Virus record (IMG/VR): IMGVR_UViG_3300030107_004381
Location: 5,338 to 25,905 of that record
Length of the DNA: 20,568 nucleotides
Source of the DNA: a virus
Reading direction: 5' to 3' (one strand)
Part shown: positions 5,320 through 13,531 of the stretch, piece by piece
How positions within the stretch are numbered: the stretch's first letter is position 1
Layout: the number at the start of each line of letters is the position of its first letter
The notes under the pieces: generated by a model
What the model saw: only the letters and a program-made list of their open reading frames with translations
What the model was told of the DNA's origin: nothing
The model's database searches: none
Position numbers and translations under genes: made by a program

Positions 5320-6005
5320 CCCCTTCTGTTGATTGCATGTTGATTTTTTATCCAAGCATTTGCTGCTCGTGAGGATGGTTTTTGTTTGATTAATTTTCCA
5401 ATTTCTACGAATACTTGAGTAAAAATATCTTCACCCGCAGAATTGTTATCTACTACAAGAAAGTTTCCTCTACCAAAATAAGATTGAAATTTACCTACAT
5501 TTTCTTGGACTGCATTCCACATTTTAGTTACTTCACTTTTCTCTAATTGTCTAGCCCTCATTTCATTTCTTTGTTGAGCAACTTCAAGTGATGTATTGAC
5601 AAATATCATATAAGTATCATAACCAATCTTTCTAAGAGCATCAGATGATTTCTTTATCTTATTATAATCTTTACCAGTTCCATCAATGAGAAGTCCAAGA
5701 CGGCCTTCAATGAACCCTGCTTGTTGTCTAGAGACAATCTTTTTGGCTCTATCTCTTATTGCTTGACCTTCATCTGAGTAGATATCCTTTGCTGTAGTTG
5801 CTTTACCAGCATCTTTCAACATTTTGGTAAACAATGGATCTGAATCAACTATCTTCAATCCATAAGGATTACTCTTCCCTACACCAGATGCAGAAGCGAC
5901 ATAAGATTTACCAGAGCCTGGGCCACCAGCAGTGAAGAATGCTTTGAATATGCCAGGGTCATTAACACCTTCATATAATTTTATGAAGTCTTGGAATGTT
6001 ATCAT
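5316..6005 (-). CDS. P-loop kinase (zeta-toxin/polynucleotide-kinase-like) with capsid-targeting-like N-terminus
   Basis: A 229-residue nucleoside/nucleotide-kinase-fold protein. Walker A is GGPGSGKS (residues 27-34), and GLLIDGTG (about 104-111) is a Walker-B-like strand. NTSLEVAQQRNEMRARQ looks like the Arg-rich lid. It resembles the P-loop kinases related to zeta toxin and polynucleotide kinase seen in many T4-like phages; the substrate cannot be read from sequence. The first residues, MITFQDFIKLYEG, are a looser version of the leader shared with six other proteins here and contain an LxE|G site like that cut by the T4 head protease. Start: TAATG overlap with the upstream gene after an excellent GAGGAGGAAG ribosome-binding site. 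Its stop codon lies inside the -35 box of the primase promoter. Confidence 0.85.
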   Translation of the reverse strand: MITFQDFIKLYEGVNDPGIFKAFFTAGGPGSGKSYVASASGVGKSNPYGLKIVDSDPLFTKMLKDAGKATTAKDIYSDEGQAIRDRAKKIVSRQQAGFIEGRLGLLIDGTGKDYNKIKKSSDALRKIGYDTYMIFVNTSLEVAQQRNEMRARQLEKSEVTKMWNAVQENVGKFQSYFGRGNFLVVDNNSAGEDIFTQVFVEIGKLIKQKPSSRAANAWIKNQHAINRRG

Positions 6006-6346
6006 TACGCCTTCCTCCTCGCTTTAGCAGCTTTGACAATAGCGATCAATTCAGTATCCATTGGTTTATTTATTGCTATCTCATATTCTCTCTTAAATTG
6101 TGCATCAGCCATTCGTTTATCTTTCATCCTTAATTGTAGTTCTTTGCGTCCAGTAACAGGATGTTGTGGAGAACGTACCGCTCGTGTATGATAAAAACTT
6201 GATGGATTCATAAGATAATCATTAAATTTATATACATCATCAAACCATGCACCCCCTGTATACTCAGGATATTTTTCATAATAAGCTGGGGATACATCCT
6301 TTTTGAAACCCGATGATTCAGTTAGATGTTCTTGAAAAGTTTTCAT
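6005..6346 (-). CDS. unknown small phage protein with capsid-targeting-like leader
   Basis: A 113-residue basic protein with no family I recognise. It begins MKTFQEHLTESSGFKKD; the first ten residues differ from the T4 internal-protein leader MKTYQEFIAE at only a few positions and end in LTE|S, a plausible prohead-protease site. The remainder has an aromatic-rich part (PAYYEKYPEYTGGAWFDD) and a Lys/Arg-rich C-terminus ending AKARRKA, as expected of a DNA-associated internal protein. It overlaps its upstream neighbour by ATGA and its downstream neighbour by TAATG, and an AAAGGAAAG ribosome-binding site precedes the ATG. It therefore belongs to a tightly coupled operon with the ATP-grasp ligase and the kinase. 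Confidence 0.8.
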   Translation of the reverse strand: MKTFQEHLTESSGFKKDVSPAYYEKYPEYTGGAWFDDVYKFNDYLMNPSSFYHTRAVRSPQHPVTGRKELQLRMKDKRMADAQFKREYEIAINKPMDTELIAIVKAAKARRKA

Positions 6347-6666
6347 TTGTTTCTTTCCTTTGTTATTTTTTTCATCTTTTCTATGTACTTCCTGTACACG
6401 TTGGCAGGGCCAGTTTTACCCATAACTCTTGCTCGTTGTTCCATCGCTATTGCAGCTTGTATTTTGTGTGCATGAGTTTTCCCTGAGTTTTCTATCTTTT
6501 TAACAGACTTTTCAGCATCTTCTGTAGTTGCAAACTTGAGTCCATGTATCGTACCTTTTGGATTCTCATCCGTATAAAGGTCTGAGTGTTTGTCACTCCC
6601 AGCTGGTTGACCTTTCTTTCTTGGTATTCTGGGCCCTTCTTCTAAATGTTGTTTAAAGGATTTCAT
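6343..6666 (-). CDS. conserved basic phage protein with capsid-targeting-like leader
   Basis: A 107-residue Lys/Arg-rich protein. After the leader MKSFKQHLEE|G comes a segment with features I recall from conserved proteins of phages and large viruses: HSDLYTDENPKGTIHGLKF, then HAHKIQAAIAMEQRARVMGK and a C-terminal YRKYIEKMKK helix. No function is known to me for that family. The strongly positive charge would suit contact with DNA inside a capsid. It overlaps the ATP-grasp gene upstream and the next gene downstream by ATGA, so all are translated in a chain. The leader ends in LEE, compatible with the [LI]xE cleavage rule of T4-type prohead protease. Confidence 0.8.
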   Translation of the reverse strand: MKSFKQHLEEGPRIPRKKGQPAGSDKHSDLYTDENPKGTIHGLKFATTEDAEKSVKKIENSGKTHAHKIQAAIAMEQRARVMGKTGPANVYRKYIEKMKKITKERNK

Positions 6667-7676
6667 TTTTCAGAGTAAATTGAGGTTATTGGTTGTGTTT
6701 TGAGCCAATTTGTTCTATCCTTAAAGATTGTAAGAATATCTTTTGCGATATTCTTTTTAGTTGCTTTCTTGTATCCTTTAGTACCTGGCGTAGAATTTAT
6801 CTCTATAAAAATAGGACTATCTTTCTCTCTATCTTTTGCAGGAATAAAATCCACTCCAACCCATAATCCATCAACTGCTTTGGCTGCCTTTTCAACATGA
6901 TCTTGTTCTAATTTTGTCAAAGTAAGTATTTCTGGTACTGAACCAAGTGATACATTACTTCTAAAGTCTTTCTTAACGATAGGTCTTTTTATAGCACCAT
7001 AAAATTTTCCAGCGATGACATGAGCTCTCACATCATATTCCGCTACAATAAAGTCCTGTAGTAGTACACCCATATTTGGGTCTAACTTATACAACAATTG
7101 AGTTGTGGCAGATAGTGACTCTTCTGATTCAATTTTAACTACACCAACTCCTAGTGAACCAGTTATTGTTTTCAAGATTACAGGATATTTTGAACCCAAT
7201 CTATCAAATGCATCAAGTGCTCTATCTTGGTGATGTATCAAAACTGTTTTTGGTTGAGTTAAACCAGTTTCAGCTAAAATTAAACTTGTGCGATACTTAT
7301 CAGAAGTTGATTCCATACAGAGTCTATTGTTGATGCAACAAACACCACCTCTTTCAAGTTGTGTCAATAAATCCATCCAAGACTTTTTTCTTGTAATAGG
7401 AGCCCTGACAAAAACTATAGTATTTTCATCAACTAGAAAACCTTTATCATCATCTATACCATGTATGAATCTCTTACCATCTGAATCAAGTTCTGAGTAA
7501 GCTCCACTAACATCAACCTTATATCCTTTTAATCCTAATTTCTCACCCTCAGTAATAAAGTCATCAGCAGTTGCCTCTGGATCATCTGGATCATCTGGAT
7601 CTTCAAACCACAAATATACAAACCGATATGATGTTTCTTTTATCTGTTCCTGCAGATGTGCACCAAATGTTTTCAT
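6663..7676 (-). CDS. RimK-type ATP-grasp ligase with capsid-targeting-like leader
   Basis: A 337-residue ATP-grasp enzyme of the RimK/glutamate-ligase type, which joins an amino acid or similar amine to a carboxylate through an acyl-phosphate. Visible elements are TSLILAETGLTQPKTVL at the domain entry, the Gly-rich ATP loop KTITGSLGVGV (159-169), DVRAHVI (about 215-221) and the metal-binding FIEINSTPGTKG (280-291). The frame is open to 7736, but I start at the ATG at 7676. It has a GGAAGGA ribosome-binding site, leaves a clean 25-base gap to the previous gene, and gives the leader MKTFGAHLQE|Q shared with neighbouring proteins. A Asp-Pro-rich stretch near residue 26 comes from a 9-bp DNA repeat. 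RimK itself adds glutamates to ribosomal protein S6; the target here is unknown. Confidence 0.88.
   Translation of the reverse strand: MKTFGAHLQEQIKETSYRFVYLWFEDPDDPDDPEATADDFITEGEKLGLKGYKVDVSGAYSELDSDGKRFIHGIDDDKGFLVDENTIVFVRAPITRKKSWMDLLTQLERGGVCCINNRLCMESTSDKYRTSLILAETGLTQPKTVLIHHQDRALDAFDRLGSKYPVILKTITGSLGVGVVKIESEESLSATTQLLYKLDPNMGVLLQDFIVAEYDVRAHVIAGKFYGAIKRPIVKKDFRSNVSLGSVPEILTLTKLEQDHVEKAAKAVDGLWVGVDFIPAKDREKDSPIFIEINSTPGTKGYKKATKKNIAKDILTIFKDRTNWLKTQPITSIYSEK
7576..7601 (-). repeat. 9-bp tandem repeat inside the ATP-grasp gene
   Basis: The plus-strand unit tctggatca occurs almost three times in a row and encodes the DPDDPDDP stretch near the N-terminus of the ATP-grasp protein. The unit is in frame, so copy-number change would lengthen or shorten an acidic linker without a frameshift. 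Confidence 0.75.
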
Positions 7677-7680
7677 GTAT

Positions 7681-7687
7681 TCCTTCC
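7681..7687 (-). promoter_or_regulatory. ribosome-binding site that fixes the ATP-grasp start at 7676
   Basis: GGAAGGA on the minus strand sits 4 bases before the ATG at 7674-7676. It is far better than anything ahead of the longer frame starting at 7736, and the start it selects yields the shared MKTF..HL.E leader. Confidence 0.75.
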
Positions 7688-7701
7688 AATAATATTTAGA
7701 T

Positions 7702-8331
7702 TCATTTTGGTATTCTACTTTTTTCTGCTCTTCCACGATTTACAGACTCATCTTCAAATCCTACTATCCTTCCATTTCTATGAGATGCATCTTTACCATC
7801 ACCATTTCCATAAGTACCTCTCCTTCTGTTGTACCGATTCAACTCTGCACGATACTTCTTACTTTTCCTTGAAGATTGAAATTTTCTATACTCATCCTTA
7901 TAATCTCTTTCCTCTACCATCGCAACAGAATCTTTAGGATTACCAGTAAGGTTTGCAAGGGATATATGATATACTCTTCCAGAATCGTATGTACCTTGTA
8001 AAGAGTCCATTACATATTCTTTCCAATCCTGTTGATTTTTTAATTTAACGTACCAAGATTTAGAACCACCCTTTTCCATTACTTTTACGATTGGGTCTAT
8101 GTCTATAGAAAACTCTGGTTCATCAAAGTCTTTAGCTTTAATTCTACCTCTGAGTTTTTGCCATCCACTTCCAGATGCGAGGGTTATGTGTAAATCACTA
8201 TCTGATATTGCTACTGCGTCTGAATTTTTGGATAAAACCTGAGCTCTAATCATCTTGATTTTTTTTAATAGTGAACCTTCCACTTTCCATTTCAGAACTG
8301 ATTCTACTTTTATCATAAATACTTTCGGCAT
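7702..8331 (-). CDS. 2H-phosphoesterase-like protein with a conserved phage C-terminal tail
   Basis: A 209-residue protein. Two H-x-[ST] motifs, DLHITLAS (His48, Thr50) and VYHISLAN (His122, Ser124), lie 74 residues apart in matching strand contexts. That is the hallmark of the 2H phosphoesterase (LigT/cyclic phosphodiesterase) fold. Such enzymes open or cleave cyclic and 2'-5' phosphodiester bonds. The T4 anti-CBASS protein Acb1 is a viral member that destroys cyclic oligonucleotide signals, so a counter-defence role is possible but not shown. The last about 60 residues are Arg/Lys/Gly-rich (RGTYGNGDGKDASH, NRGRAEKSR) and look like a separate conserved phage tail of unknown role. No Shine-Dalgarno is evident; a strong hairpin lies 12 bases upstream. 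An internal ATG at 8316 is an alternative start. It lacks the capsid-type leader of its neighbours. Confidence 0.7.
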   Translation of the reverse strand: MPKVFMIKVESVLKWKVEGSLLKKIKMIRAQVLSKNSDAVAISDSDLHITLASGSGWQKLRGRIKAKDFDEPEFSIDIDPIVKVMEKGGSKSWYVKLKNQQDWKEYVMDSLQGTYDSGRVYHISLANLTGNPKDSVAMVEERDYKDEYRKFQSSRKSKKYRAELNRYNRRRGTYGNGDGKDASHRNGRIVGFEDESVNRGRAEKSRIPK

Positions 8332-8404: not shown

Positions 8405-9103
8405 TCATTTCCAGTTTTCCTTTACCCATGTGTCCTTTACTTCATGTGGTTTTGGTGTTCCATGAAAAACTACTATTTTTGAATTCATATCATATCCACA
8501 AGTATAACTTTGTAGCCAATCAGAAGGATAATATACTATATCCACATTGTGTTCTTTTAATTGATTTGTAGTCCACTCTTGATCTCCTCTATAAACTACA
8601 GGAGGAAAAGAGTTTAAATCGTGATATAAATTTTTCTTTCCATTTAATGTTTTATCAAAATATTCTTCTGCAGTAAATCTAGTTCTCAATGCTTCAAACC
8701 AGTTATCAATGATATAAGAGTGTTCACCTGCATTAAATCTCATACATGATGCGTTTATACAATCAATCTCCCAATCCTTGATACCAACAAACTCGGCATC
8801 TGGTTCAAATAAAAATAAATCATCTATTGAATTATTAATCACCACATCTAAATCAAGAAAAAGAATTTGACCAGTTATATCATGTAACTCTTTTTCAAAT
8901 AACTCAAACTTTGTATAACTATCTTTTAATTCTTTCCTTAATAGTGGTTTAGTTTCAATCTCTTCATTTAATCCAGTTGGATCTTCTGTTAAACATACAA
9001 ACCGATGCGGTAAAGTTAAGTGTCTTTCAACCATACTGTATAGTTTGTTTACATAACCAGCAGAGAATTTAGTTCCCCACTTTACACATAATATATTTTT
9101 CAT
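8405..9103 (-). CDS. glycosyltransferase, GT8-like
   Basis: A 232-residue protein with a nucleotide-sugar glycosyltransferase fold. It has an N-terminal beta strand (ILCVKWGTKFSAGYVNKLYSM), a metal-binding DxD in LFLDLDVVI (Asp84-Leu-Asp86), an acceptor-side MRFNAGEHSYI region and a C-terminal FHGTPKPHEV. The last is like the His-containing metal site near the end of GT8 enzymes. It would transfer a sugar from a nucleotide sugar; the acceptor (DNA base, surface glycan or protein) cannot be told. Its start overlaps the stop of the lipase gene by one base (TAATG), linking it to the envelope cassette and making a surface-glycan role plausible. After its stop comes a 73-base gap with a hairpin. 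Confidence 0.8.
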   Translation of the reverse strand: MKNILCVKWGTKFSAGYVNKLYSMVERHLTLPHRFVCLTEDPTGLNEEIETKPLLRKELKDSYTKFELFEKELHDITGQILFLDLDVVINNSIDDLFLFEPDAEFVGIKDWEIDCINASCMRFNAGEHSYIIDNWFEALRTRFTAEEYFDKTLNGKKNLYHDLNSFPPVVYRGDQEWTTNQLKEHNVDIVYYPSDWLQSYTCGYDMNSKIVVFHGTPKPHEVKDTWVKENWK

Positions 9104-9846
9104 TATAATTGTTTTTTTAATGTTTCTACATATTTTGAAATAGAATGATCTAAACCATCTGTTTCAGAAATTAAACCATTATCGTTATCTGGCCCCCAAT
9201 CCAAAGTCTGACTATCTACAAATACTCCTGTGTGAAGATAAGGATAAGTAGGACTAAAAGTGACAGGATCACTCCTGCGAACCACACGCCAATGAGTGGG
9301 TTGTCCACCAGACAAAACTTGAGAAGATACTTTTGGTGATCCGTAAGAGAAAACTTGAACATTGTAACCTCTTTTGTGTAACCACATTCCTACAATCTGA
9401 GCAATGGCTCCACCTAAACTGTGACCAGTAACGTGTACTGTATGTTCTAGTTGATAATATTTGTCAACCTCTTGAATAATTGTTGTAGATGCATCTCTAA
9501 ATCCCTTATGAAGATATATGTCTAATACATCATCTTTTATCATTCTTATGTCAATATCTGATAATACATTTGCTGTGTTATCAGTTCCCCTAATGACAAT
9601 AATCGTTATTCCATCACTAGTTTTTACTTCATAAGAAAGATTGTTTACCTCTGTTCCACCATTATCATAAATTGATTCACAGTATTCTGCGTGTTCAACA
9701 AGTATTTCTACTTTAATTGGTAGATTTGATTTATCACCACTTGTCGCACCCACTTCTTCAGCACTCTTCGCACATCCACTAAGTAGTAGAATCACTCCTA
9801 CTATTATGAGCTTCCAGTTCTTCTTTTTTCTTCCAAGCAGTTGCAC
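9103..9846 (-). CDS. class-3-type lipase lipoprotein
   Basis: A 247-residue alpha/beta-hydrolase. The nucleophile elbow is GHSLGG (Ser143), and the catalytic Asp (RSDPVTF, Asp193) and His (LDHSISKYV, His234) follow in the right order. RGTDN (residues 86-90) is the usual oxyanion strand of class 3 lipases. The N-terminus is GRKKKNWK, then a hydrophobic run ending LLSGC (Cys25), a good lipoprotein signal. The enzyme should be membrane-anchored and face the periplasm, able to attack phospholipid or other esters. The only reasonable start is a GTG at 9846, 68 bases inside the holin-like gene; no strong ribosome-binding site is visible, so translation may be coupled. A complete catalytic triad argues for activity. 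A role in lysis or envelope remodelling is inferred from neighbours. Confidence 0.85.
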   Translation of the reverse strand: MQLLGRKKKNWKLIIVGVILLLSGCAKSAEEVGATSGDKSNLPIKVEILVEHAEYCESIYDNGGTEVNNLSYEVKTSDGITIIVIRGTDNTANVLSDIDIRMIKDDVLDIYLHKGFRDASTTIIQEVDKYYQLEHTVHVTGHSLGGAIAQIVGMWLHKRGYNVQVFSYGSPKVSSQVLSGGQPTHWRVVRRSDPVTFSPTYPYLHTGVFVDSQTLDWGPDNDNGLISETDGLDHSISKYVETLKKQL

Positions 9847-10661: not shown

Positions 10662-11825
10662 TTATTTAAGAGGGGGTGCGTAAAGTAATCCTCCATGAAT
10701 GTATAATCGGTTCAATCCTCTGTTTAATCCTAATTTTTTCTTAATGTTGCGGTCAAATATTTCTTCGTAATTTCCTACTTGTTTGATTATATCATAAGAC
10801 CAGTTTTCAGTCAACCCTAACTTTGCACCAAGATGTGGATGATCTTTACCATTTTTTTCACCCATGAATCTTTGAACATTTGGGTCTTTATTTTCTATAA
10901 ATCTGTCAATATTTTTTGAGTTTATACCCATCTCTTCTGCAATAAAAAGAACATATATTGTCCATCTTACTATGTCTGACCATTTTTGGTCACCATATTT
11001 TACAACTGGCCCGAGTGGTTCTTTTGATATTATTTCTGGTAAAATTATATGTCTTTCTGGTGAATTAAATCCTAATCTATTAGATGCTAATCCAGATCTA
11101 TCAGTTCCATACATATCACAGTCACCTCTAAGATAAACATCTTTTGTTTTTTCATTGACCGAAACAGCAACTGGAATGTACTTTATTTCGTGAAGTTCCA
11201 TAAAGTCTGCGATATTTTTAGCAGCAGTACCAGAACCTTTGAAACATATTTTAGCACCATGCATCTGTTTAGCAGAAGAAACACCTAAAGATTTTTTTGT
11301 AATAAATCCTTGACCATCATAATAGGTTGTTGGTAAAAATTCAAATTTCTTTAGTACATTTCTTGTAAATGTATATGTGGTTGCTGCAGATAACATATCA
11401 ATAGTACCATCTTTTAAATATGCAAATCTAGTGATACCATTTACTATTTCGTATTCTACAGCATCTGAATCTCCAAATACTGCTGCAGCCACTGCTCTAC
11501 ACATATCAACATCAAATCCCTTCCATCCTTCATCTTCATTATCATATGTCTCTTCAGAAAAGCCAGGAAATTCATCATTAGTTCCACAAATAATATAACC
11601 TCTTTCCATTACTCTATCAAATGTAGATCCGTATGTTGGATTATATTCTTCTAATTCTCCTGTATCTCTCAGTTTTATAGCTTTAAGTTTTTCTAACTGC
11701 TGTACCAATTTGTTAATGTTATCGTCAATGCGTTCACTAGGTGGACTTCCTTCAACTGAACTGTTAATAACCATTACCCAAAATAACCACACTAAACAAA
11801 CGACAACCTTACCACTCATAATCAT
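10662..11825 (-). CDS. aapJ: AapJ/YhdW-like general L-amino-acid ABC transporter substrate-binding protein
   Basis: A 387-residue periplasmic binding protein. A signal peptide (hydrophobic core about residues 7-21, cut probably near SVEG|SPP) is followed by a short coiled-coil-like stretch (about 36-60). The binding domain begins STFDRVMERGYIICGTN. Many segments match AapJ closely: GFDVDMCRAVAAAVFGD, YYDGQGF, the ILPEIISKEPLGPVV motif, GNYEEIFDRN and the terminal GGLLYAPPLK. AapJ binds a broad range of L-amino acids for the AapQMP transporter; no permease or ATPase gene is in the window, so it would have to use host AapQMP or act as a sink. The start overlaps the cytochrome-like gene (ATGA). 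The helical spacer after the signal peptide is unusual for the family. A clear host-derived gene. Confidence 0.9.
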   Translation of the reverse strand: MIMSGKVVVCLVWLFWVMVINSSVEGSPPSERIDDNINKLVQQLEKLKAIKLRDTGELEEYNPTYGSTFDRVMERGYIICGTNDEFPGFSEETYDNEDEGWKGFDVDMCRAVAAAVFGDSDAVEYEIVNGITRFAYLKDGTIDMLSAATTYTFTRNVLKKFEFLPTTYYDGQGFITKKSLGVSSAKQMHGAKICFKGSGTAAKNIADFMELHEIKYIPVAVSVNEKTKDVYLRGDCDMYGTDRSGLASNRLGFNSPERHIILPEIISKEPLGPVVKYGDQKWSDIVRWTIYVLFIAEEMGINSKNIDRFIENKDPNVQRFMGEKNGKDHPHLGAKLGLTENWSYDIIKQVGNYEEIFDRNIKKKLGLNRGLNRLYIHGGLLYAPPLK

Positions 11826-12292
11826 TTTAAAGTCCTGTAAACTTCCATAAGTTCATCATCTGAAATGGGAGAAGTCATTGTATAATATCTTTGATGACCT
11901 ACTCTCATGAATGCTTTTATGTCAGAAAAACTTGGATACGTTGATTGTAGGTTATGAAGTAGGTAGTCAGGGTCTAAGTGACAAGTTGCACATTGATTAT
12001 CTCTTGCAAAAACTCTTGTTGATATTTTAAATCTTTCACTTTGAACTAATACTGCTGAAAGGTCTTTTTCCATCCATGTTATTCTTTCATCCATATCTGG
12101 AATAACTAGAAAAATTAAATATATAAGAAGTCCGATAATAACATAGATGAAAGATTTACTCGCAACTATTTGGTCTTTAGCTGCAAGTTCCATTTGTTGA
12201 ACTTCTTCTACTTTTTTGTCTATTTCCTCAATGTCATGTTGTAGTATTTTTGTGTCTTTTTCGTTTCCTGTATTTTTATCCTGTTGTGCCAT
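11822..12292 (-). CDS. membrane-anchored c-type-cytochrome-like protein (single CxxCH)
   Basis: A 156-residue protein in three parts. A soluble acidic coiled coil (about 13-40) comes first, then one strongly hydrophobic helix (about 47-64). The C-terminal domain carries CATCH (101-105), the CxxCH signature for covalent heme attachment, and would face the periplasm where c-type heme is inserted. Downstream, Met129 or Met139 (YYTMTSPISDDELMEVYRTL) could be the sixth iron ligand; the last segment resembles the closing helix of cytochrome c. This would need the host Ccm system. Single CxxCH motifs can arise by chance, but the layout, with a membrane anchor and helix ending, makes heme binding plausible. 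The start has an AAAGGAAAA ribosome-binding site and the stop overlaps the AapJ-like start. Confidence 0.7.
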   Translation of the reverse strand: MAQQDKNTGNEKDTKILQHDIEEIDKKVEEVQQMELAAKDQIVASKSFIYVIIGLLIYLIFLVIPDMDERITWMEKDLSAVLVQSERFKISTRVFARDNQCATCHLDPDYLLHNLQSTYPSFSDIKAFMRVGHQRYYTMTSPISDDELMEVYRTLK

Positions 12293-12295
12293 AAT

Positions 12296-12643
12296 CTATT
12301 TTCCTTTTCCAACTTGATTCAACTTTTTAGTTATTTGTTGTTGAAACCATTTCAATACAATGGGAATACTTACATTAGAAGTAAGTCCAAATAAAAAACC
12401 GACAGGATATCGGTAAGAAGCATAAGGTGCTAATTGTGGAATATTTGTAAATACTATTGAAATTAATAAATATCCTGTTAAAGACATTCCCATATTGATT
12501 AAAAGATCAAATCCTATCAACCAACCATGCCCTTCATATTTTTCTTTATTGTCTGTTCTGTAATTAAATAGAAAAAGCCAAAATGATGCAAATAATATAA
12601 TTGCCATCATTATCAGCTCATCTATTCCAAAAAGTTGATCCAT
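12296..12643 (-). CDS. three-helix membrane protein, possible holin
   Basis: A 115-residue very hydrophobic protein with predicted membrane helices at about residues 9-27, 42-66 and 80-98. Its C-terminus is basic and Gln/Lys-rich (KWFQQQITKKLNQVGKGK). This size, helix number and charged tail fit a class I holin, but there is no sequence feature specific to one, and two other small membrane proteins in this window also could be. It starts 22 bases after the HAD-like gene and ends 3 bases before the cytochrome-like gene, so it opens the envelope cassette. The ribosome-binding site is weak (AATAAAG). Confidence 0.7.
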   Translation of the reverse strand: MDQLFGIDELIMMAIILFASFWLFLFNYRTDNKEKYEGHGWLIGFDLLINMGMSLTGYLLISIVFTNIPQLAPYASYRYPVGFLFGLTSNVSIPIVLKWFQQQITKKLNQVGKGK

Positions 12644-12665: not shown

Positions 12666-13178
12666 TTAGGGGAATCCAATCTTCTTCAAATCATTTATGG
12701 TAGAAGCGGCATCAGTATGAAGTATTCCTATACCTCCGGCAGATTCCCATTCTTTGATATTACCTATGTGGTCATCTATCAGTATATTGGGTCTTTTGTC
12801 TCTACCATCCATAGCAAAGTTTTTCTTGTTTTTTCTTAGTACTATTTTCATTCTACTTGATGGAAGTTTGAAATTTTTCATCATCCATCTTGTTTTATCT
12901 TTCCAAGCTCTTTTGGCAATTGGGCCTCTTGAATCTCTTGGAACTGCTGTAAGCATAAATGGTTGGAATTGTTTTATATATCCCCACAAAACATCAGCAT
13001 CTGGCATCTTTGGGAGTTGTAAAAATAAATCTACTGGTAAATCTTGCCAGAGTTCATCTTTAAATTTTGTTCCAAGATAATTAGAGGTAAATTTTACAAA
13101 ATCAGCAACCACACCATCCATATCACAATAGATTTGTGGGTTATCAAATTCTATTATATGTTGCTGAAAACTTTTCAT
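12666..13178 (-). CDS. HAD-family 5'(3')-deoxyribonucleotidase-like phosphatase with capsid-targeting-like leader
   Basis: A 170-residue HAD hydrolase. Motif I is YCDMDGVVADF (nucleophile and acid Asp residues about 19 and 21), motif II lies in FMLTAVPR, and motif III/IV is NILIDDHIGNIKEWESAGG. This arrangement is that of the NT5C-type 5'(3')-deoxyribonucleotidases, which remove phosphate from deoxynucleoside monophosphates; the precise substrate is inferred. The N-terminus, MKSFQQHIIE|F, is the shared leader of this window and ends in IIE, compatible with prohead-protease cleavage. The ATG abuts the stop of a 29-residue membrane ORF (TAAATG). A phosphatase would fit either nucleotide salvage or the T4-like idea of an injected enzyme. 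Confidence 0.85.
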   Translation of the reverse strand: MKSFQQHIIEFDNPQIYCDMDGVVADFVKFTSNYLGTKFKDELWQDLPVDLFLQLPKMPDADVLWGYIKQFQPFMLTAVPRDSRGPIAKRAWKDKTRWMMKNFKLPSSRMKIVLRKNKKNFAMDGRDKRPNILIDDHIGNIKEWESAGGIGILHTDAASTINDLKKIGFP

Positions 13179-13268
13179 TTAAAGTATTCCTATATACCAA
13201 AAAAAATAACCAAGTGCAGCAAAAAATATAAGAAAAACAATTGCAAAATCTGTAGGACTAAGGTTCAT
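13179..13268 (-). CDS. 29-residue single-helix membrane peptide
   Basis: A short ORF that fills the gap between two larger genes. It begins at an ATG at 13268 that overlaps the upstream TGA (ATGA) and stops at 13179, directly against the next ATG (TAAATG). The product begins MNLSPTDFAIVFLIFFAALG and ends YFFWYIGIL: almost one hydrophobic helix (about residues 7-28). Perfect fit into the gap and the coupling junctions on both sides argue that it is translated. It could be a small regulator of a membrane complex or lysis protein; there is no family to compare it with. Confidence 0.65.
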   Translation of the reverse strand: MNLSPTDFAIVFLIFFAALGYFFWYIGIL

Positions 13269-13531
13269 TTGTCGTCTATCTCGTAATTAAAAGCTTTAGT
13301 ATTGCTTTTTGCTGGTTTTGCCATAGGTCTTAACCAAACCTTGATTACCATTTCACCACTTGGAGTTGGAAATGTAAAAGTTGGTTTACCTTTTTTCATC
13401 TTGTAATCATCGGTTGCATTTACAGGAAATTTAGCTAACTTTCTTTTTTTTATCTCATCAGAAACATATTTGTCTCTATCATCAGCTGTAAAAAATCTTA
13501 CTTCATTAATATGGTCTTTAAATGTTTTCAT
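13265..13531 (-). CDS. unknown small protein with capsid-targeting-like leader
   Basis: An 88-residue basic protein with no recognised family. The leader MKTFKDHINE|V is followed by a Lys-rich segment, then KGKPTFTFPTPSGEMVIKVW, which looks like a beta hairpin. It overlaps the gene before it by one base (TAATG) and the 29-residue membrane peptide after it by ATGA. Its small size, positive charge and leader resemble T4 internal head proteins, but beyond the leader there is no similarity I can see. Confidence 0.75.
   Translation of the reverse strand: MKTFKDHINEVRFFTADDRDKYVSDEIKKRKLAKFPVNATDDYKMKKGKPTFTFPTPSGEMVIKVWLRPMAKPAKSNTKAFNYEIDDK

Follow-up and report, generated by a model that had tools for sequence, protein, structure and literature searches.

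A predicted AapJ-like amino-acid-binding protein encoded in a conserved operon of marine T4-like phages

The gene for an AapJ-like substrate-binding protein (SBP) described here is best read as part of an old operon that marine T4-like phages own, in which it comes third, after the genes for a small membrane protein (TM115) and for a membrane protein with a CxxCH motif. It lies in a window of 20,568 nucleotides, the whole stretch of DNA analysed, which is part of the 25,905-base virus record IMGVR_UViG_3300030107_004381 (positions 5,338 to 25,905). A first-pass annotation had placed the open reading frame at exactly the coordinates given in Table 1; the frame is real but runs on the minus strand, and the plus strand across the same interval is full of stops.

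Table 1 Features of the SBP region, in window coordinates
Feature	Position	Strand	Basis
AapJ-like substrate-binding protein (SBP) gene, 387 aa, P0001	10662..11825	-	ORF, Pfam, 4z9n, dN/dS
Signal-peptide-like N-terminus, residues 1-26, putative cut after VEG	11748..11825	-	by eye, alignment
Variable spacer, about residues 27-64	11634..11747	-	alignment
Substrate-binding domain, residues 65-387, anchors T150, R155, T200, D242	10665..11633	-	4z9n, HisJ alignment
PycTM-like membrane protein, 192 aa	10072..10650	-	Pfam PF18967, E 1e-19
Single-span membrane protein, 156 aa, CxxCH (C101, C104, H105)	11822..12292	-	4-base overlap with SBP start
TM115, three-helix membrane protein, 115 aa, holin-like size and layout	12296..12643	-	AF2 pLDDT 80

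SBP belongs to the SBP_bac_3 superfamily by its Pfam match (E 5.2e-12; 46.1 bits against a curated cutoff of 26.4), while its best NCBIfam match, TIGR01096, scored 128 bits, under the cutoff of 256 for that family. The best match among solved structures was 4z9n (residues 65-386, E 4.3e-76), which we take to be a Brucella-type AapJ, and AapJ, BztA and YhdW are presumably the fitting subfamily names; the second-best solved relative was found at E 7.7e-11. The similarity to AapJ noted earlier therefore extends over the whole binding domain, including its C-terminal part. Inspected by eye, the N-terminus shows the lysine, the hydrophobic core and, in most relatives, the A-x-G-like cut site of the signal peptide that had been proposed (VEG in the window protein, AEG in many relatives), and K6, W16 and G26 are nearly invariant in the alignment of relatives. 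Judging from this N-terminus, SBP is probably exported. The spacer between signal and domain is present in the window protein, but it is not conserved: its length varies among relatives, and it is nearly absent in L025, L074 and L105, for example. A role as tether or oligomeriser, suggested in the first-pass annotation, is therefore unlikely as a general function and was dropped.

The SBP gene is under purifying selection (median dN/dS 0.153; 1179 pairs with dS 0.05-0.8), and pairs within the same dS range gave medians of 0.135 for the CxxCH gene, 0.062 for TM115 and 0.14 for the PycTM-like gene. Partial proteins under the length limits were dropped and identical sequences collapsed before SBP alignment; partials were also dropped before the Mantel tests reported below. 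Two loci have the SBP gene split into two frames (L095:4428-5540 and L110:3170-4286), through either sequencing error or decay.

Ligand-site positions were mapped by alignment to E. coli HisJ, using 82 phage and 95 bacterial rows. We take T121 to be a backbone anchor of HisJ, and the remaining pocket positions, Y14 apart, are likewise our assumption. At the sites of HisJ S72, R77, T121 and D161, all 82 phage and all 95 bacterial rows carry T, R, T and D (T150, R155, T200 and D242 of SBP), so that the backbone anchors had been retained when the ligand-contacting residues were checked; by eye, they are also kept in L227 and L235, which belong to a group (L227-L236) outside the 82-row set. In HisJ/LAO, the ligand is held at its amino group by S72 and D161 and at its carboxyl group by R77, and Y14 is a pocket position (PMC4192606). 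The side-chain pocket is altered relative to bacterial AapJ (R147 to A, T199 to G, T201 to A, L86 to F, N148 to A/T). These differences from bacterial AapJ fall at the sites of HisJ Y14, S69, S70, T120 and Q122 and are fixed or nearly so across the 82 rows; the D11 and L52 sites gave no clean separation of phage from bacterial rows. Since the pocket differs from that of AapJ proper at fixed sites, binding of the usual AapJ ligands cannot be taken for granted. Of 101 near-invariant AapJ columns, 82 are retained in the phage protein. From the kept anchors and the changed pocket we infer that SBP may bind an alpha-amino acid that is not the ligand of host AapJ, or not that one alone.

The order of the operon was counted in 157 contigs, one row each, left from 208 loci after removal of 51 duplicates. 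The relative lists comprised the best 80 of 112, 133, 242 and 192 relatives, so that distant relatives are undersampled in these counts. The CxxCH gene stood behind TM115 in all 140 contigs with room; 123 had room beyond the CxxCH gene, and in 111 of these SBP was its direct neighbour. Among the 12 exceptions, one (L095) has SBP in two frames, seven have SBP about 1.3-1.8 kb downstream, two (L228 and L230, with 735 and 1462 bases downstream) are too short to judge, and in L084 and L085 a gene for an IscU/NifU-like Fe-S scaffold takes the SBP place straight after the CxxCH gene (L084:2511-2897 and L085:3678-4064; PHROG match at 3.9e-40 for L084, the same protein in L085). CxxCH and TM115 can thus occur without an adjoining SBP gene. 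Because the SBP query biases the 111/123 count, we recounted from loci found with TM115 alone (best 80 loci): the CxxCH gene followed in 73 of 73 with room, and among 62 with room SBP was adjacent in 51, further downstream in 7 and not seen in 4. The end of the CxxCH gene, with its stop, runs 4 bases into the SBP gene in 117 of the 133 contigs that hold both. A promoter scan of the region returned 11 sites, fewer than the 19.1 in shuffled sequence, and no promoter is claimed.

The three proteins also vary together. Mantel correlations over 97 contigs were 0.63 for CxxCH-SBP, 0.46 for TM115-SBP and 0.38 for TM115-CxxCH, with none of 500 permutations as high, although these values are no proof of interaction, as neighbouring genes are physically linked. 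Between two of the relatives, G005 and G006, identity was 60% for TerL and 44% for the sheath, compared to 78% for SBP, 75% for CxxCH and 82% for TM115, which would reflect either strong constraint on the cassette or its exchange between phages. The reading as a lone auxiliary gene was rejected because of the linkage within the operon.

The PycTM-like gene, by contrast, is set apart from this core. On the question whether related phages keep SBP beside it, 104 contigs had room to tell: it comes directly after SBP in 72, was non-adjacent in 10 and was not seen in 22. SBP and PycTM distances do not co-vary (Mantel r 0.010 over 67 contigs, 203 of 500 permutations as high, against 0.38-0.63 within the operon), which weakens the idea of a partnership. 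The fixed partners of SBP are the upstream TM115 and CxxCH genes rather than PycTM. A gene for a class 3 lipase-like protein often lies downstream of PycTM in relatives, and the window has one at 9103-9846 (minus strand; Pfam 2e-18) with a lipoprotein-type N-terminus by eye.

The CxxCH motif was present in all 139 sequences (109 distinct), as were H133 and M129; H113 was found in 137 and M139 in 97. All 20 members searched matched the Pfam SoxA-TsdA cytochrome c family at E up to 1, the best at 7e-4 and below the cutoff, and such matches lean on the CxxCH motif itself. The AF2 model was poor (pLDDT 60), and a profile search returned no relative in the PDB. We regard the protein as a putative inner-membrane heme-c-type protein. 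For TM115, the named matches in a viral Foldseek search were often holins, none of them significant (best E 0.12), and a PHROG holin match was obtained for 1 of 20 members (E 0.32); no holin family scored convincingly in Pfam or PHROGs. Foldseek against the PDB gave a best E of 3.7, and VIA a Z of at most 7.4, a range usual for helical models. TM115 was also considered as a permease piece and rejected as such, since its BPD_transp_1 matches (5 of the 20 members, E 0.037 at best) are at chance level. Small three-helix phage holins of the LydA type resemble TM115 in size, in their three helices and in a basic tail, but showed no significant match to it.

That the gene is phage-borne, as first proposed, is supported by relatives in at least 112 IMG/VR contigs and by the T4-type virion genes that flank the cassette in L110 and L114, where PHROGs identified a head-tail adaptor, head closure and sheath stabilizer proteins, the small and large terminase and the tail sheath. 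By these gene contents the carriers are T4-like phages. The isolate terminases nearest to that of L110 are from cyanophages (about 60%), and the B12-dependent ribonucleotide reductase of the window is nearest to those of phages of Puniceispirillum, Sinorhizobium, Rhizobium and Roseobacter (about 60-63%), a kinship that would fit an alphaproteobacterial host.

Several other genes in the window and its relatives were recorded. G006 encodes a full TctA permease (L205:8154-9599, Pfam 2.1e-79), overlapped by the gene for a secreted-looking protein that gave no Pfam match (L205:9592-10707), and a run of radical-SAM-like genes with CxxxCxxC-type motifs by eye (about 3.3-19 kb, L204). G005, a 134-kb relative, carries a Bmp-type SBP (L198:10955-12205, 3.4e-42), an SbmA/BacA-like transporter (L198:5399-6367, 4.6e-133) and, near the cassette, two genes resembling A-type Fe-S carriers by eye (about 82554-83298, L201). 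The window itself encodes a RimK-like ATP-grasp ligase at 6663-7736 (minus strand; Pfam 3.7e-32). Several small proteins have an MKSF/MKTF-QHL-type N-terminus in common (window 12666-13531, 6005-6666 on the minus strand, and many loci), which, we presume, recalls the cleaved internal head proteins of T4-like phages.

Phylogeny, proposed earlier as a way to find the donor among marine alphaproteobacteria, yielded no near one. The tree had 117 rows, 95 of them bacterial and 22 drawn from the 82 distinct SBP sequences of phages. A branch with support 100 separated all phage rows from the bacterial ones, on a stem of about 2.14 + 0.33 changes per site (a range of about 2.1-2.5); the tree is unrooted, with no outgroup, so that the phage clade may have arisen inside or outside AapJ. 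Matches to SBP at E <= 1e-30 were present in 221 of 385 alphaproteobacterial genomes, and the highest identity of a bacterial AapJ to phage SBP was 49% among the matches listed (385 genomes and the best 80 of 596 loci), which argues against a recent transfer from a host. Named phages matched SBP weakly, in 4 of 50,697 records and at 23-32% identity, and gave no match to the CxxCH, TM115 and PycTM-like proteins; the A2 and A3 profiles each matched 0 of 372 alphaproteobacterial genomes in a search run without a positive control. These findings suggest that SBP is a long-diverged phage-side branch and not a recently borrowed host gene. As it sits in nearly always the same short operon, SBP appears to be part of a phage envelope device instead of a recent host loan, and we are highly confident that it is the SBP of a phage-owned operon.

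As to function, our leading reading, at somewhat below an even chance, is that SBP supplies the infected cell with an amino acid through a host Aap/Yhd-type permease. SBP would be made together with the inner-membrane heme-c-type protein and TM115; a late time of expression is probable, as several relatives have the cassette amid their virion genes. The secreted SBP would then bind its amino acid and present it to the permease, while the CxxCH protein may carry electrons or report the redox state in the same membrane. We rank uptake first, if under even odds, because of the retained family-wide conserved columns, and the reading is strengthened by relatives that carry transport genes (TctA, the Bmp-type SBP, SbmA/BacA). 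Against it count the lack of a permease gene in the cassette (no permease ORF adjoins SBP in the window, and thus none of the AapQMP operon expected for AapJ proper) and the pocket unlike that of AapJ. The IscU-like gene that stands in for SBP behind TM115 and CxxCH in L084 and L085 counts against uptake as well, as do the cyanophage uptake proteins of the PstS type, which are patchy, host-like and non-syntenic (PMC10976474), unlike phage SBP.

Less probable, at perhaps one chance in four, is an envelope sensor that involves no host permease: SBP would report an amino acid, the CxxCH protein would report the state of redox or respiration, and TM115, with its holin-like build, would convert both signals into lysis timing or control of the membrane state. 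The near-fixed gene order with its 4-base overlap, the correlated CxxCH and SBP distances, the place of the cassette among late virion genes and the holin-like size and holin-named viral fold matches of TM115 all speak for such a sensor; the holin matches are non-significant, however, and linkage alone correlates neighbouring genes. We consider it doubtful that the three proteins go further and form one inner-membrane/periplasm complex, a nutrient- and redox-gated lysis switch of these widespread marine T4-like phages that would sense the amino acid together with host respiration and set the lysis time or membrane energetics. Similarly unlikely is a blocking or decoy protein, which would occupy the host permease or a periplasmic receptor without delivering ligand and so shut out other phages or alter host uptake. 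A pocket remodelled within an otherwise largely retained AapJ frame and the membrane-protein neighbours, including the PycTM-like one, agree with a decoy, but the ligand anchors, kept in all 82 rows, would be needless for a pure one. The original proposal, in which an auxiliary gene taken from a host increases uptake of the usual AapJ ligands via AapQMP and the helical spacer serves as a tether, has family membership and the anchors on its side and is improbable given the distant bacterial relatives, the long stem, the changed pocket and the spacer that is not conserved.

Phage-borne binding proteins are usually taken as borrowed host genes, whereas the SBP described here is an old phage-side branch, locked in an operon with a putative heme-c-type membrane protein in well over 100 marine virus contigs. 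If the proposed role is true, these phages would bring their own envelope device, which couples amino-acid availability to the energy state of the host. With AapJ/BztA/YhdW the phage protein has the whole domain and the backbone anchors in common; it differs by its identity of at most 49% among the matches listed, its separate clade, its changed pocket and the lack of adjoining Aap permease genes. A literature search, with most subscription journals outside its reach, found no comparable amino-acid SBP in phages. The tctA gene on SUP05 phage contigs (PMC4164917) is likewise a solute-transport gene on marine phage contigs, and TctA occurs in G006 as well, but it encodes a permease of another family than SBP_bac_3. 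The nearest precedent is cyanophage PstS, also a phage-coded periplasmic binding protein (for SBP, a predicted one) without its own permease; in PMC10976474, PstS is reported from 30 of 95 genomes, host-like and without synteny. The close kinship to a sampled host gene that marks PstS-type auxiliary genes was not found for phage SBP, which, unlike PstS, forms one old clade in a near-fixed operon.
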